A stretch of DNA of 64,000 bases from Evansella clarkii (GTDB lineage Bacteria; Bacillota; Bacilli; Bacillales; Salisediminibacteriaceae). Below, piece by piece: positions 15,627-25,700 of this stretch. A program made the position numbers and the translations under genes. The notes beneath the pieces are model-generated. The model saw nothing but the letters and a program-made list of their open reading frames with translations. It made no database searches and was not told where the DNA came from. Location of the stretch: the NCBI RefSeq assembly GCF_002019695.1, contig NZ_KV917376.1, positions 3,190,040 to 3,254,039 of the forward strand. Direction: 5' to 3'. Numbering within the stretch: position 1 is the stretch's first letter; every line of letters starts with the position of its first letter.

Positions 15627-16604
15627 ATGAGTATGATGCCATTGGAGAAACGGGAAATTACGAATAGTCGTCTTGTATACGGCTGTATGGGGTTAGGAGG
15701 GGAATGGAACGGCGATCAGTTAACTAAAGAGGATTACATAACAGCACAAAAAGCTGTCGAGGCTGCGCTTGAAAACAATATCGCCATGTTTGACCATGCG
15801 GACATTTATAAACATGGAAGGTCAGAAACTGTATTTGGCCGGTTATTAAAGGAGGATCCTGGCCTTAGAAAAAAATTAGTTCTCCAGAGTAAGTGCGGAA
15901 TTCGTTTTTCAGAAGGTGAGGTTCCAAACAGGTATGACTTTTCTGAAAAACATATACTGTCATCTGTGGATGGTATTCTGGAACGCCTTGAAACGGATTA
16001 TCTTGATATTTTACTGCTCCACCGGCCGGATCCACTAATGGAACCGGAAGAAGTTGCTGCAGCTTTTTCAAAATTAAGAGAGTCAGGTAAGGTTAAGCAC
16101 TTTGGGGTATCTAACATGAACGCTGCGCAAATTAAACTTTTACAGGCGTACTGTGATGAACCTTTGATTGTTAATCAGCTGGAAATGAGTCTTAATCGGC
16201 TGGACTGGGTCGAGCATGGAGTACTAGTGAACCAGAAAGAGGGGGCCTCTGTAAATTTTTCTGATGGAATAGTTGAGCATTGCAGACTGGAGAACATCCA
16301 GCTTCAGGCCTGGGCTCCCCTTGCTTATGGAATGTACAGCGGCAGGGAAGCTAAAGATACGACTGAGGCTATCCTGGCAACTAAGAAAGCTGTCAATGAA
16401 TTAGCTGAGAAAAAGGGCACTGCAGCAGAAGCAATTGTACTTGGCTGGCTGATGCGTCATCCGGCGAAGGTTCAGCCAGTAATTGGAACAGTAAATCCAG
16501 GCAGGATAAAAAATTGTGCTGAGGCAGTTAAACAGGCGGAAATTATGACAAGGGAAGAATGGTATACCCTGTATACAGCTTCTCGTGGAAAAAAGATGCC
16601 TTAA
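15627..16604 (+). CDS. Aldo/keto reductase (YdhF-like)
   Basis: This cytoplasmic NADPH-dependent oxidoreductase has a TIM-barrel fold and 325 residues. It shows GCMGLGGEWNG at the N-terminus, the catalytic block FDHADIYKHGRSETVFGRLL (Asp and Tyr of the tetrad), LVLQSKCGI (Lys), the active-site His in ILLLHRPDPLM, and HFGVSNMNAAQI. The C-terminal PVIGTVNPGRI is the cofactor phosphate loop. The wording of these motifs is closest to the E. coli YdhF group. ATG 15627 is chosen because AAGGAGAG lies about 10 bases before it; in-frame ATG 15633 is also possible. It stands alone, with a terminator at 16613-16638. The substrate is unknown. Confidence 0.88.
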   Translation: MSMMPLEKREITNSRLVYGCMGLGGEWNGDQLTKEDYITAQKAVEAALENNIAMFDHADIYKHGRSETVFGRLLKEDPGLRKKLVLQSKCGIRFSEGEVPNRYDFSEKHILSSVDGILERLETDYLDILLLHRPDPLMEPEEVAAAFSKLRESGKVKHFGVSNMNAAQIKLLQAYCDEPLIVNQLEMSLNRLDWVEHGVLVNQKEGASVNFSDGIVEHCRLENIQLQAWAPLAYGMYSGREAKDTTEAILATKKAVNELAEKKGTAAEAIVLGWLMRHPAKVQPVIGTVNPGRIKNCAEAVKQAEIMTREEWYTLYTASRGKKMP

Positions 16605-23425: not shown

Positions 23426-24070
23426 ATGAAAGTATTAGTTGTTGGTGCAAACGGGCAGATTGGCAGACACCTGGTGAAGTTATTACAAGAAAGCGAAAAA
23501 CATACAGTGCGCGCGATGGTCAGAAAAGAAGAACAGGCAGAAGAGTTTAATAACCAGGGTGTAGAAACGGCGCTGGCAGATCTTGAAGGAAGTGTGGAAG
23601 ACATCGCTAAAGCCGCTGAAGGCTGTGATGCGGTTGTATTTACTGCAGGATCCGGAGGACAGACAGGCCCTGACAAAACACTACTCATTGATCTTGACGG
23701 GGCAGGAAAAACTATTGAAGCGGCAGAAAGGGCCGGAGTAATGCGATATGTTCAGGTAAGCGCGATCCAGGCACACAACCGGGAAAACTGGAGCGACCAG
23801 ATAAAACCGTATTTTGCTGCGAAGCATTATACAGACAGAATGCTTGAACTGAGCAGACTTACCTATACAATCGTTCGGCCTGGCGGTCTGACGAACGATA
23901 ATGGGGAAGGAAGAATCATGGCCGGAGAAAACCTGGAAAGGGCGTCAATCCCACGGGAAGATGTTGCAGAGACAATTCTTCATACACTTGATGCGAGAAA
24001 TACTTTCAATAAAGGATTTGATCTCGTTTCTGGCGATCAGCCGATAGAAGAAGCAGTAAGAGATATATAA
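23426..24070 (+). CDS. yhfK: NAD(P)-binding atypical SDR protein (YhfK-like)
   Basis: The 214-residue Rossmann protein opens with VVGANGQIGRHLVKLL (GxxGxxG nucleotide loop). It then shows RAMVRKEEQAEEF, ADLEGSVEDIAKAAEGCDAV, FTAGSGGQTGPDKTLLIDLD, SAIQAHNRENW and IVRPGGLTND. These blocks closely follow B. subtilis YhfK (NAD(P)H-binding, DUF2867-like group). No catalytic Tyr-x-x-x-Lys of classical SDRs is obvious apart from the AKHYTDRML block, so it may be a sensor or a reductase with an unknown substrate. AAAAGGAG precedes the ATG. A quinone-reductase-like gene starts 25 bp downstream, suggesting a redox-stress operon that continues into the DsbA-like gene. Confidence 0.88.
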   Translation: MKVLVVGANGQIGRHLVKLLQESEKHTVRAMVRKEEQAEEFNNQGVETALADLEGSVEDIAKAAEGCDAVVFTAGSGGQTGPDKTLLIDLDGAGKTIEAAERAGVMRYVQVSAIQAHNRENWSDQIKPYFAAKHYTDRMLELSRLTYTIVRPGGLTNDNGEGRIMAGENLERASIPREDVAETILHTLDARNTFNKGFDLVSGDQPIEEAVRDI

Positions 24071-24095: not shown

Positions 24096-25031
24096 ATGAA
24101 AGCAATAGTGATTGAGAATTATGGCGGAAGAGAACAGCTTAGAGAGCGGGAAGTTGAAAAACCGCAGATAGGGGAAGATCAGGTACTTCTGGAAGTTCAT
24201 GCTACCTCTGTAAATCCCATCGACTGGAAGATGCGGGAAGGATACTTAAAGGAGATGTTTCCTTTTGAATTTCCGATAATCCTCGGGTGGGATGCGGCAG
24301 GTGTTGTAGCAGAAACAGGATCAAATGTTTCGAAATTTAAGACAGGGGATCGCGTTTTTACAAGGCCTGCAACAACAAAAAACGGCACTTACGCGGAATT
24401 TACTGCCGTCGATGAGGACAAGCTGGCAATAATGCCTGAAAAAATGAGCTTTGAAGAGGCATCAGCAATTCCTCTTGCAGGATTGACTGCTTATCAGTGC
24501 CTTGTTGACCTTGGTAATGTACAGGAAGGAGATAAGGTCCTTGTACACGCTGGAGCAGGCGGTGTGGGTATTTACGCCATTCAAATCGCAAGGAGCCTTG
24601 GTGCTTACGTTGCCACAACAGCCAGCGGGAAGAACGAAGAATTTGTACGGTCCCTTGGAGCCGATCATGTTATTAATTACCAAAACGAGAATTTCAATGA
24701 AGTATTACAAGATTTTGATTTTGTTCTCGATTCCCTCGGAGGAGAGATACAATCAAAAAGCTATGAAGTTTTAAAGAAAGATGGTAAATTAATTTCTATA
24801 GTCAATCCTCCTGATGAAGAAGAAGCGAAAAAATCTGGCGTAACTGCAGGCTTTCACTGGCTTCAGGAAAACGGGGCACAGCTGGAAGAGCTTGCTGAAT
24901 TTTACAATAAAGGCCAGCTTCAGCCGATAGTAGGAAGTACCTTTGAGTTCAGTGAAGCAGGCGTCCAGGGTGCCCATGAATTAAGTGAAACCCGCCACGC
25001 AAGAGGGAAAATCGTCATTAAAGTAAAATAG
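24096..25031 (+). CDS. NADP-dependent oxidoreductase, quinone-reductase-like MDR family
   Basis: The 311-residue zinc-free medium-chain dehydrogenase/reductase has a GroES-like N-terminus: EVHATSVNPIDWKMREGYLK and PIILGWDAAGVVAETGSNVS. The Rossmann domain follows with VLVHAGAGGVGIYAIQIARS (nucleotide loop), then GADHVINY and FDFVLDSLGGE. Cysteine and histidine zinc ligands are absent, as in the QOR/zeta-crystallin branch, which reduces quinones or enones with NADPH. TAGGAGG lies seven bases before the ATG. It is placed 25 bp after yhfK and 41 bp before the DsbA/FrnE gene, all on one strand, so a shared oxidative-stress transcript is likely. Confidence 0.9.
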   Translation: MKAIVIENYGGREQLREREVEKPQIGEDQVLLEVHATSVNPIDWKMREGYLKEMFPFEFPIILGWDAAGVVAETGSNVSKFKTGDRVFTRPATTKNGTYAEFTAVDEDKLAIMPEKMSFEEASAIPLAGLTAYQCLVDLGNVQEGDKVLVHAGAGGVGIYAIQIARSLGAYVATTASGKNEEFVRSLGADHVINYQNENFNEVLQDFDFVLDSLGGEIQSKSYEVLKKDGKLISIVNPPDEEEAKKSGVTAGFHWLQENGAQLEELAEFYNKGQLQPIVGSTFEFSEAGVQGAHELSETRHARGKIVIKVK

Positions 25032-25072
25032 TTTTTCTCGGTGTTTGAGGATAAAAAAGAAGAGGTGCCGAA

Positions 25073-25657
25073 ATGAGCGAAGAAAGAAAAAAAATCACAA
25101 TATACAGCGATTTCCTTTGACCCTTTTGTTTTATCGGGACAGTCCCGCTTAACCAGTTGGTTAAGGAGAAAAACTTAGAGGTAGAATGGAAAGCATTTGA
25201 ACTTCGTCCGGAAGGTATGGAACCGCCGAAGATGCCGGATGGGTATTATGAACAGGCGAAGAAAAACGTTCAGATGATGTCTGAGCAATATGGTCTTGAA
25301 ATGCACTGGAATGACAAGAGTAAGCATTCGAGACGGGCACTGGAAGGGGCTAAGTTTGCAGAGAAGAAAGGCCTTGCCCATGAATATCATGAAGCAGTTT
25401 TTAAGGCCCAGTTCCAGCAGAATAAAAATATTAATGATGTCGATACGCTGGTGCAGATTGCATCTGAAGTGGGTCTTAATGAAGAAGATTTCCGGCAGGC
25501 GCTGAAATCAAGAGAGTATGAACAAGAAGTGCTTGCTGATCATGAAGAAGCACAGCAGATTGGAATCACAGCTGTTCCTTGTTTCGTCTCAGGAAACCGT
25601 GGGGTAATGGGTGCCCAGCCTTATGAAGCATTGGTGAAACTTATCGAAGGAAATTAA
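25073..25657 (+). CDS. DsbA/FrnE-family thiol oxidoreductase; in-frame TGA at catalytic Cys, putative selenoprotein
   Basis: ATG 25073 (AGAGGTG upstream) opens MSEERKKITIYSDFL. Codon 16 is then TGA (25118-25120), and the same frame continues PFCFIGTVPLNQLVKEKNLE to a normal stop, 194 residues in all. The family motif here is C-P-F-C, so the TGA replaces exactly the first, nucleophilic cysteine. The rest looks intact: VEWKAFELRPEG, the helical insert, the cis-Pro loop GITAVPCFVSG and GAQPYEALVKLIEG. Two hairpins follow the TGA: CGGGA-CAG-TCCCG (25135-25147) and CTTAACC-AGTT-GGTTAAG (25148-25165), where a bacterial SECIS would sit. Either it encodes a UPFC selenoprotein or it is a one-base nonsense pseudogene or sequencing error; a downstream restart would lack the active site. 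No sel genes are in this window. Confidence 0.75.
25135..25165 (+). promoter_or_regulatory. Candidate bacterial SECIS hairpins downstream of the in-frame TGA
   Basis: Two adjacent perfect stems start 14 nt after the TGA. The first is CGGGA/TCCCG with loop CAG. The second is CTTAACC/GGTTAAG with loop AGTT, which has a G at loop position 2. Known bacterial SECIS elements have an apical loop about 16-37 nt after UGA with a G in its first two positions; the second hairpin meets this. The call is from hand folding only. Confidence 0.45.
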
Positions 25658-25670
25658 GAATAATCTATTT

Positions 25671-25700
25671 AGCATTCCGCTTTTTGCGGGATGCTTTTTT
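25671..25700 (+). terminator. Terminator of the yhfK-oxidoreductase-DsbA unit
   Basis: AGCATTCCGC (25671-25680) pairs with GCGGGATGCT (25686-25695), then T6. Confidence 0.93.

Follow-up and report, generated by a model that had tools for sequence, protein, structure and literature searches.

According to the available portions of the papers that bear on them, DsbA-like selenoproteins with a UxxC motif have been described in several places. Nine sequences of this kind from the Sargasso Sea, belonging to COG2761, were published in 2005 (PMC1088965); the preliminary description of the present locus remarks that such proteins are known in other bacteria. In 2016 they numbered 45 proteins in 41 organisms (PMC5029168), and a 'DsbA-like protein form 1' is listed in 2026 (PMC13188914). 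In the same family, and with Cys at the active site, FrnE of D. radiodurans reduces insulin and has disulfide isomerase activity, its mutant is sensitive to cadmium and diamide, and its C-terminal CXXXXC, found in many but not all FrnE proteins, has been proposed to regenerate the enzyme (PMC8945050). Lmo1059 of Listeria monocytogenes, a DsbA-family protein with CPFC, reduces GSSG and protects against diamide, and its first Cys is essential for both GSSG reduction and diamide tolerance (PMC10715225).

Here we consider a frnE-type gene of Evansella clarkii that appears to be broken by a stop codon at its active site. The window, that is, the whole stretch of 64,000 nucleotides that was analysed, corresponds to G000:C1:3190040-3254039 of a 5.48 Mb genome. 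Judging from sequence comparison, we put at roughly 96% the probability that the gene encodes a FrnE-type protein of the DsbA family, probably cytoplasmic, with Sec16 as its nucleophile, the UGA being decoded by tRNA-Sec and SelB by means of a downstream SECIS element. The gene would then almost certainly be intact, its stop codon standing for selenocysteine at the active site.

The gene and its active site

The frame runs on the forward strand from ATG 25073 to a TAA that ends at 25657, a total of 194 codons, and its sole interruption is the TGA at 25118-25120. This is codon 16, the position of the first Cys of CPFC, exactly as the preliminary description had claimed; the motif reads SDF-L-U-PFC and the translation MSEERKKITIYSDFL-U-PFCFIG. 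Under the ordinary code the active site is lost, and the mechanical listing of open reading frames begins the gene at TTG 25157, giving 166 codons. The features of the region are as follows.

23426..24070, + strand: NAD(P)H-binding SDR-like gene, first of the row (PF13460)
24096..25031, + strand: quinone-reductase/zinc-type alcohol dehydrogenase-like gene (profile matches; adjoins frnE in G018 and G166 too)
25061..25067, + strand: ribosome-binding-site-like AGAGGTG, 5 nt before the ATG (by eye)
25073..25657, + strand: oxidoreductase gene of the DsbA family, frnE type, interrupted by a single in-frame TGA (PF01323, D. radiodurans FrnE match, model)
25118..25120, + strand: TGA, probably the Sec codon for U16 in UPFC (Cys homologues have TGC/TGT and relatives TGA at the aligned position)
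25127..25129, + strand: Cys19 codon, presumed resolving Cys of UPFC (invariant in a 27-row alignment)
25135..25147, + strand: proximal hairpin CGGGA-CAG-UCCCG, loop 19 nt after the TGA, conserved, without the loop G of the SECIS rule
25148..25165, + strand: distal hairpin CUUAACC-AGUU-GGUUAAG, loop 34 nt after the TGA, likely SECIS core for SelB
25580..25582, + strand: Cys170 codon, directly after cis-Pro169 (alignment rows)
25671..25695, + strand: terminator-like hairpin and T run, 3' of the frnE-type gene

The frnE-type gene is the last of three same-strand genes, after the SDR-like and quinone-reductase-like ones. As a gene row, the 'redox operon' proposed earlier stands; among the other nine members of the closest group (defined below) the full row recurs in the same-genus genome only, and one more has the partial arrangement in which the quinone reductase gene adjoins. 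Promoter-like sites show no excess, with 6 found against 6.3 expected from shuffles. In two other members, G206 (L094 4225-5447) and Terrihalobacillus (L099 4341-5561), the Sec form is the second of a tandem pair, immediately preceded by a paralogous FrnE gene of the Cys form.

The protein matches PF01323 with an E-value of 2.1e-38 (132.5 bits against a cut-off of 25.6) and, through UPFC, carries the UxxC motif. No NCBIfam model scores above its cut-off, NF041057 (the Rcas_1661 family) reaching 61.9 bits against a curated cut-off of 190. The nearest solved structures are those of D. radiodurans FrnE (5cnw/5cp1, E about 1e-25). An AlphaFold2 model built from the 27-row alignment, with Sec entered as Cys, has a mean pLDDT of 94.1 and a pTM of 0.90; its top Foldseek match is again FrnE (5co3, TMq 0.84), and position 16 immediately precedes helix 17-21, where the nucleophile would be expected. 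By sequence match and model, the fold is that of FrnE. COG2761, to which the Sargasso Sea sequences belong, is presumably FrnE too.

Sec and Cys are confined to three positions of the protein, U16, C19 and C170. By analogy with Cys-containing FrnE and DsbA proteins, U16 would attack disulfides and C19 would resolve the product. The C-terminal CXXXXC is absent, though this does not define FrnE, since FrnE proteins lacking it are named in the available part of PMC8945050. The third Cys, after the cis-Pro, is the less expected feature of this all-Sec clade, being present in 10/10 members of the closest group and in 0/85 other rows. By analogy with the characterized enzymes, the protein may act as a cytoplasmic disulfide reductase with a Sec nucleophile, contributing to thiol redox balance under oxidative stress.

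Relatives and the hairpins after the TGA

Within the same family, a threshold of E 1e-20 gives homologues in 22 of 35 genomes, and 21 of these 22 have one TGA, always at the position of that in the window gene. A survey of the order found homologues at E 1e-25 or better in 126 of 397 genomes, with at least one TGA form in 40; every TGA-bearing gene in this survey has its TGA at the active-site codon. The closest group, at 61-93% identity to the window gene, comprises ten distinct genes (the window gene and those of G018, G206, G166, Paenisporosarcina, Terrihalobacillus, Aquibacillus, Aneurinibacillus, Sediminibacillus and a Bacillota MAG). The preliminary description had proposed checking whether close relatives have TGA, TGC or TGT here, and all ten have TGA; G018, another species of the same genus whose gene is 93% identical, shares it, and none of the ten has a further interruption of the frame. 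Loci L118, L119 and L121, whose mapping did not span the active site, were left out of the active-site comparison. The nearest Cys form stands at 43-44% identity (L046/L097, G059).

On a tree of 95 rows (identical or too-short rows removed, midpoint-rooted for drawing only) the ten genes form one group, with support 97/99. The Sec/Cys label changes 10 times over the whole tree, at least six of these changes being forced by well-supported branches, and 0/500 label shuffles give as few. This repeated exchange between Sec and Cys makes the family a good natural test of the benefit of Sec over Cys. TGA-form FrnE homologues are also carried by Chloroflexota MAGs (L104-L107, L109-L112), and a second frnE copy, L078 (G053:C28:229000-233700), has in-frame TGA at two codons, with changes next to the motif, and is perhaps decaying.

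Bacterial SECIS elements are described, in the available part of PMC13188914, as having a stem of 4-16 bp, a loop of 3-9 nt with G in loop positions 1-2, and a loop 16-37 nt from the UGA. The two hairpins that had been reported after the TGA are where they were said to be, starting 14 nt (proximal) and 27 nt (distal) downstream of it. The distal one agrees with the rule, with 7 bp, an AGUU loop that has a G in its first two positions, as claimed earlier, here at position 2, and a distance of 34 nt, and the proximal one departs from it in lacking the G. Folding energy is ordinary (z -1.04, with 32/200 shuffles folding as well), which counts against the Sec reading; it is conservation, and not folding energy, that makes the hairpins more than chance.

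Throughout the closest group the distal loop is AGUU or AGGU, with G at position 2 in 10/10. Its stem holds one compensatory pair (G-C in 6, A-U in 3, G-U in 1) and, at the next pair, an A.C mismatch in 4/10 members, which we also count against the Sec reading; one of these four, L102, yielded no contiguous hairpin that fits the rule. The best rule-fitting hairpin is the distal one in 6/10 genes, another hairpin in 3 and none in 1. Formal covariation among these ten is weak, a further point against the Sec reading: one pair is changed on both sides, a count that 424/500 shuffles reach, and sliding the partners by -1 leaves the same count and gives a covariation score of 0.139 vs 0.115 unslid. 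The share of paired cells is 93.3% in register vs 50% when slid by -1; this share and the covariation score are each reached by 12/500 shuffles.

Because formal covariation is weak for ten close relatives, we relied on a test of codon constraint. Comparing codons for the same residue in the closest group, identity is 336/367 at codons +5 to +15 after the TGA vs 2088/4821 elsewhere, and among sliding windows of 11 codons the highest starts at +6 and the second at +5. Divided by hairpin, identity is 144/167 over the proximal (+5 to +9) and 214/236 over the distal (+10 to +16), and four stretches elsewhere each give 42-46%; GGG, CCG, CTT and CAG are each used in 10/10 genes. On this sequence evidence both hairpins are under constraint at the RNA level. 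A different profile appears in the control, made up of 37 more distant Sec genes, selected by the motif UPFC/UPYC followed by AE, and 10 comparable Cys genes (identical or too-short rows removed). Codons in these Sec genes are frozen over +5 to +9 (2402/2618; GCG, GAG and CCG each in 37/37) and not over +10 to +16 (1407/2901); in the Cys genes neither stretch is frozen (86/177 and 128/250). Distant Sec forms thus have one constrained hairpin and the window's group two, the first of them at the same codons.

A wider count of 94 distinct genes, many of them closely related and with identical or too-short rows removed, separates the two forms as well. Contiguous hairpins that fit the rule, at -5 kcal/mol or better, follow the codon in 60/65 TGA genes vs 7/29 Cys genes, and they beat synonymous shuffles at p < 0.05 in 51/65 vs 0/29. 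In the mechanism we favour, SelB would bring tRNA-Sec to the UGA and bind a SECIS hairpin a short way downstream, for which the distal one at 25148-25165, with its AGUU loop, is the likeliest candidate; the insertion of selenium at U16 and the choice of hairpin contacted by SelB are both matters that we infer.

Selenocysteine machinery and other readings of the TGA

The preliminary description had pointed to selA, selB, selC and selD elsewhere in the genome as a check, and all four were found, as selC, selB, selD and selA, about 68-74 kb upstream of the start of the window. The selC match is above its cut-off at 62.2 bits and is called tRNA-SeC with anticodon tca by ARAGORN; selA scores 544 bits and selB 363.6 bits, with the SelB winged-helix domains. 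The selD gene (412.7 bits) itself has one in-frame TGA, in SSKAG-U-GCKIG. With the four genes present, the host would decode UGA as selenocysteine, as far as genes can show. Tandem repeat arrays of 21, 42 and 82 bp lie in the same region, between selB and selD (L009 11947-12213) and after selA (15917-16063). Two formate-dehydrogenase-like stretches of the genome also have in-frame TGA (G000:C1:2258925-2259677 and C1:3636219-3636986), the second in the context NHARI-U-HSS with a clear SECIS-like hairpin whose loop, GGUCU, lies 18 nt downstream; with these the host may have at least four selenoproteins.

Across the order, tRNA-Sec above the cut-off is found in 179 of 397 genomes. It accompanies the TGA form in 39/40 genomes, vs 22/86 genomes whose homologues lack TGA, a class defined by the missing TGA in which the active-site codon was individually read in a minority only, and which includes one genome (G078) with a TAA inside the homologue frame. 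The association over the 397 genomes gives a Fisher p of 1.8e-15, uncorrected for relatedness. The exception is G405, an assembly 99% complete, whose frnE (L073, G405:C17:166000-170500) has the TGA and a good SECIS-like hairpin, and in which neither tRNA-Sec nor selA was found. This may be an orphan selenoprotein gene, a recent loss of the machinery or an assembly gap; it indicates that the TGA form can exist without detected machinery, and we count it against the Sec reading.

G405 also lends something to the strongest of the competing explanations, that the gene is a pseudogene in which a Cys codon became TGA in this lineage, the remainder being intact only through recency; TGA is, moreover, one base away from both TGC and TGT. 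Such a gene would not be expected to share its TGA with 10/10 distinct genes down to 61% identity, nor to keep the remaining frame open in all ten with synonymous codons frozen over the hairpins only, and we consider the chance of it very small. Slightly less probable still is that the TGA is a true stop, followed by an internal restart without UPFC, for instance at the TTG that opens the listed 166-codon frame, or that the SECIS element acts as a selenium-dependent switch between a short and a full product. A restart leaves unexplained the conservation of UPFC and of hairpins that would lie past a true stop. Recoding of UGA was 30-40% in vivo in the system studied in PMC4513850, in the part of it available, and since a share of translation ordinarily stops at a Sec UGA, some short product is to be expected in any case. 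A sequencing or assembly error, for which there is only the general possibility, is negligible given the same TGA in the G018 assembly, whose gene is 93% identical, and in eight other members of the group. The TGA being shared among relatives, both the pseudogene and the error were dropped, and we keep to the reading of the TGA as selenocysteine.

Comparison with known systems

The hairpin layout has a counterpart in selD. In 28/28 chosen genomes of the order selD is present, making 29 loci with one TGA each, and of 26 loci, 25 have the loop of their best rule-fitting hairpin 33 nt downstream of the TGA and one has it at 32 nt (L138, L141 and L147 are outside this count, and inside the stem alignment of 29 loci and 28 distinct rows). 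In that alignment 94.6% of proximal and 98.2% of distal stem cells are paired and 5/12 pairs are changed on both sides; 0/500 shuffles reach any of the five measures used and every slid version scores far lower, relatedness not being allowed for. By eye, the proximal stem is broken or register-shifted in L136, L138, L146 and L155. One genome, G135, has two selD genes (L154, L155), with TGA in both; L155 keeps the distal hairpin with changed pairs, its proximal one being the shifted stem just mentioned. The host's own selD also has two hairpins after its TGA. Like the window gene, selD of this order thus combines a proximal and a distal hairpin, with a distal loop at 33 nt, mostly GUU, where the loops of the window's group lie at 19 and 34 nt; unlike it, selD encodes an unrelated protein and has other stem sequences.

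Two features of the clade deserve attention, the third Cys and the tandem hairpins. We tentatively suggest, at somewhat less than even odds, that the clade represents a FrnE enzyme of its own, restricted to Sec, whose redox site has three members (Sec16, Cys19, and Cys170 after the cis-Pro) and whose mRNA uses a two-hairpin SECIS like that of selD in these Bacilli. On this proposal the proximal hairpin would sit at the codons of the only constrained hairpin of distant FrnE selenoproteins, its loop G now lost, and the distal hairpin, at 33-34 nt, would bind SelB; the proximal hairpin may also play a part in recoding. The constrained layout, in the clade and in selD, poses a testable question, namely how SelB of these bacteria reads the signal. 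Among the open-licence literature matches listed, none dealt with FrnE selenoproteins of Bacilli or with a bacterial SECIS made of two hairpins, as far as titles and the start of abstracts tell, and DsbA and FrnE are absent from the main text of the deep-Sep paper (PMC12013277).

FrnE of D. radiodurans (DR_0659; 5cnw, 5co3) is the best match in both sequence and fold, with CP(W/F)C at the same place. It differs in having Cys and not Sec, and in its C-terminal CXXXXC, in place of which the window protein has the Cys after the cis-Pro. Lmo1059, likened here by its published description, has a CPFC that corresponds to UPFC, but in the Cys form. The closest resemblance is to the DsbA-like selenoprotein form 1, which has in common with the window gene PF01323, UxxC, a hairpin after the UGA and widespread Cys homologues. 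Its published entries, in the available parts of the sources, are a metagenome set and family tables, in which no Bacillota FrnE selenoprotein is named. Since DsbA-like UxxC selenoproteins were already listed in 2005, the window gene belongs to a known kind of selenoprotein.
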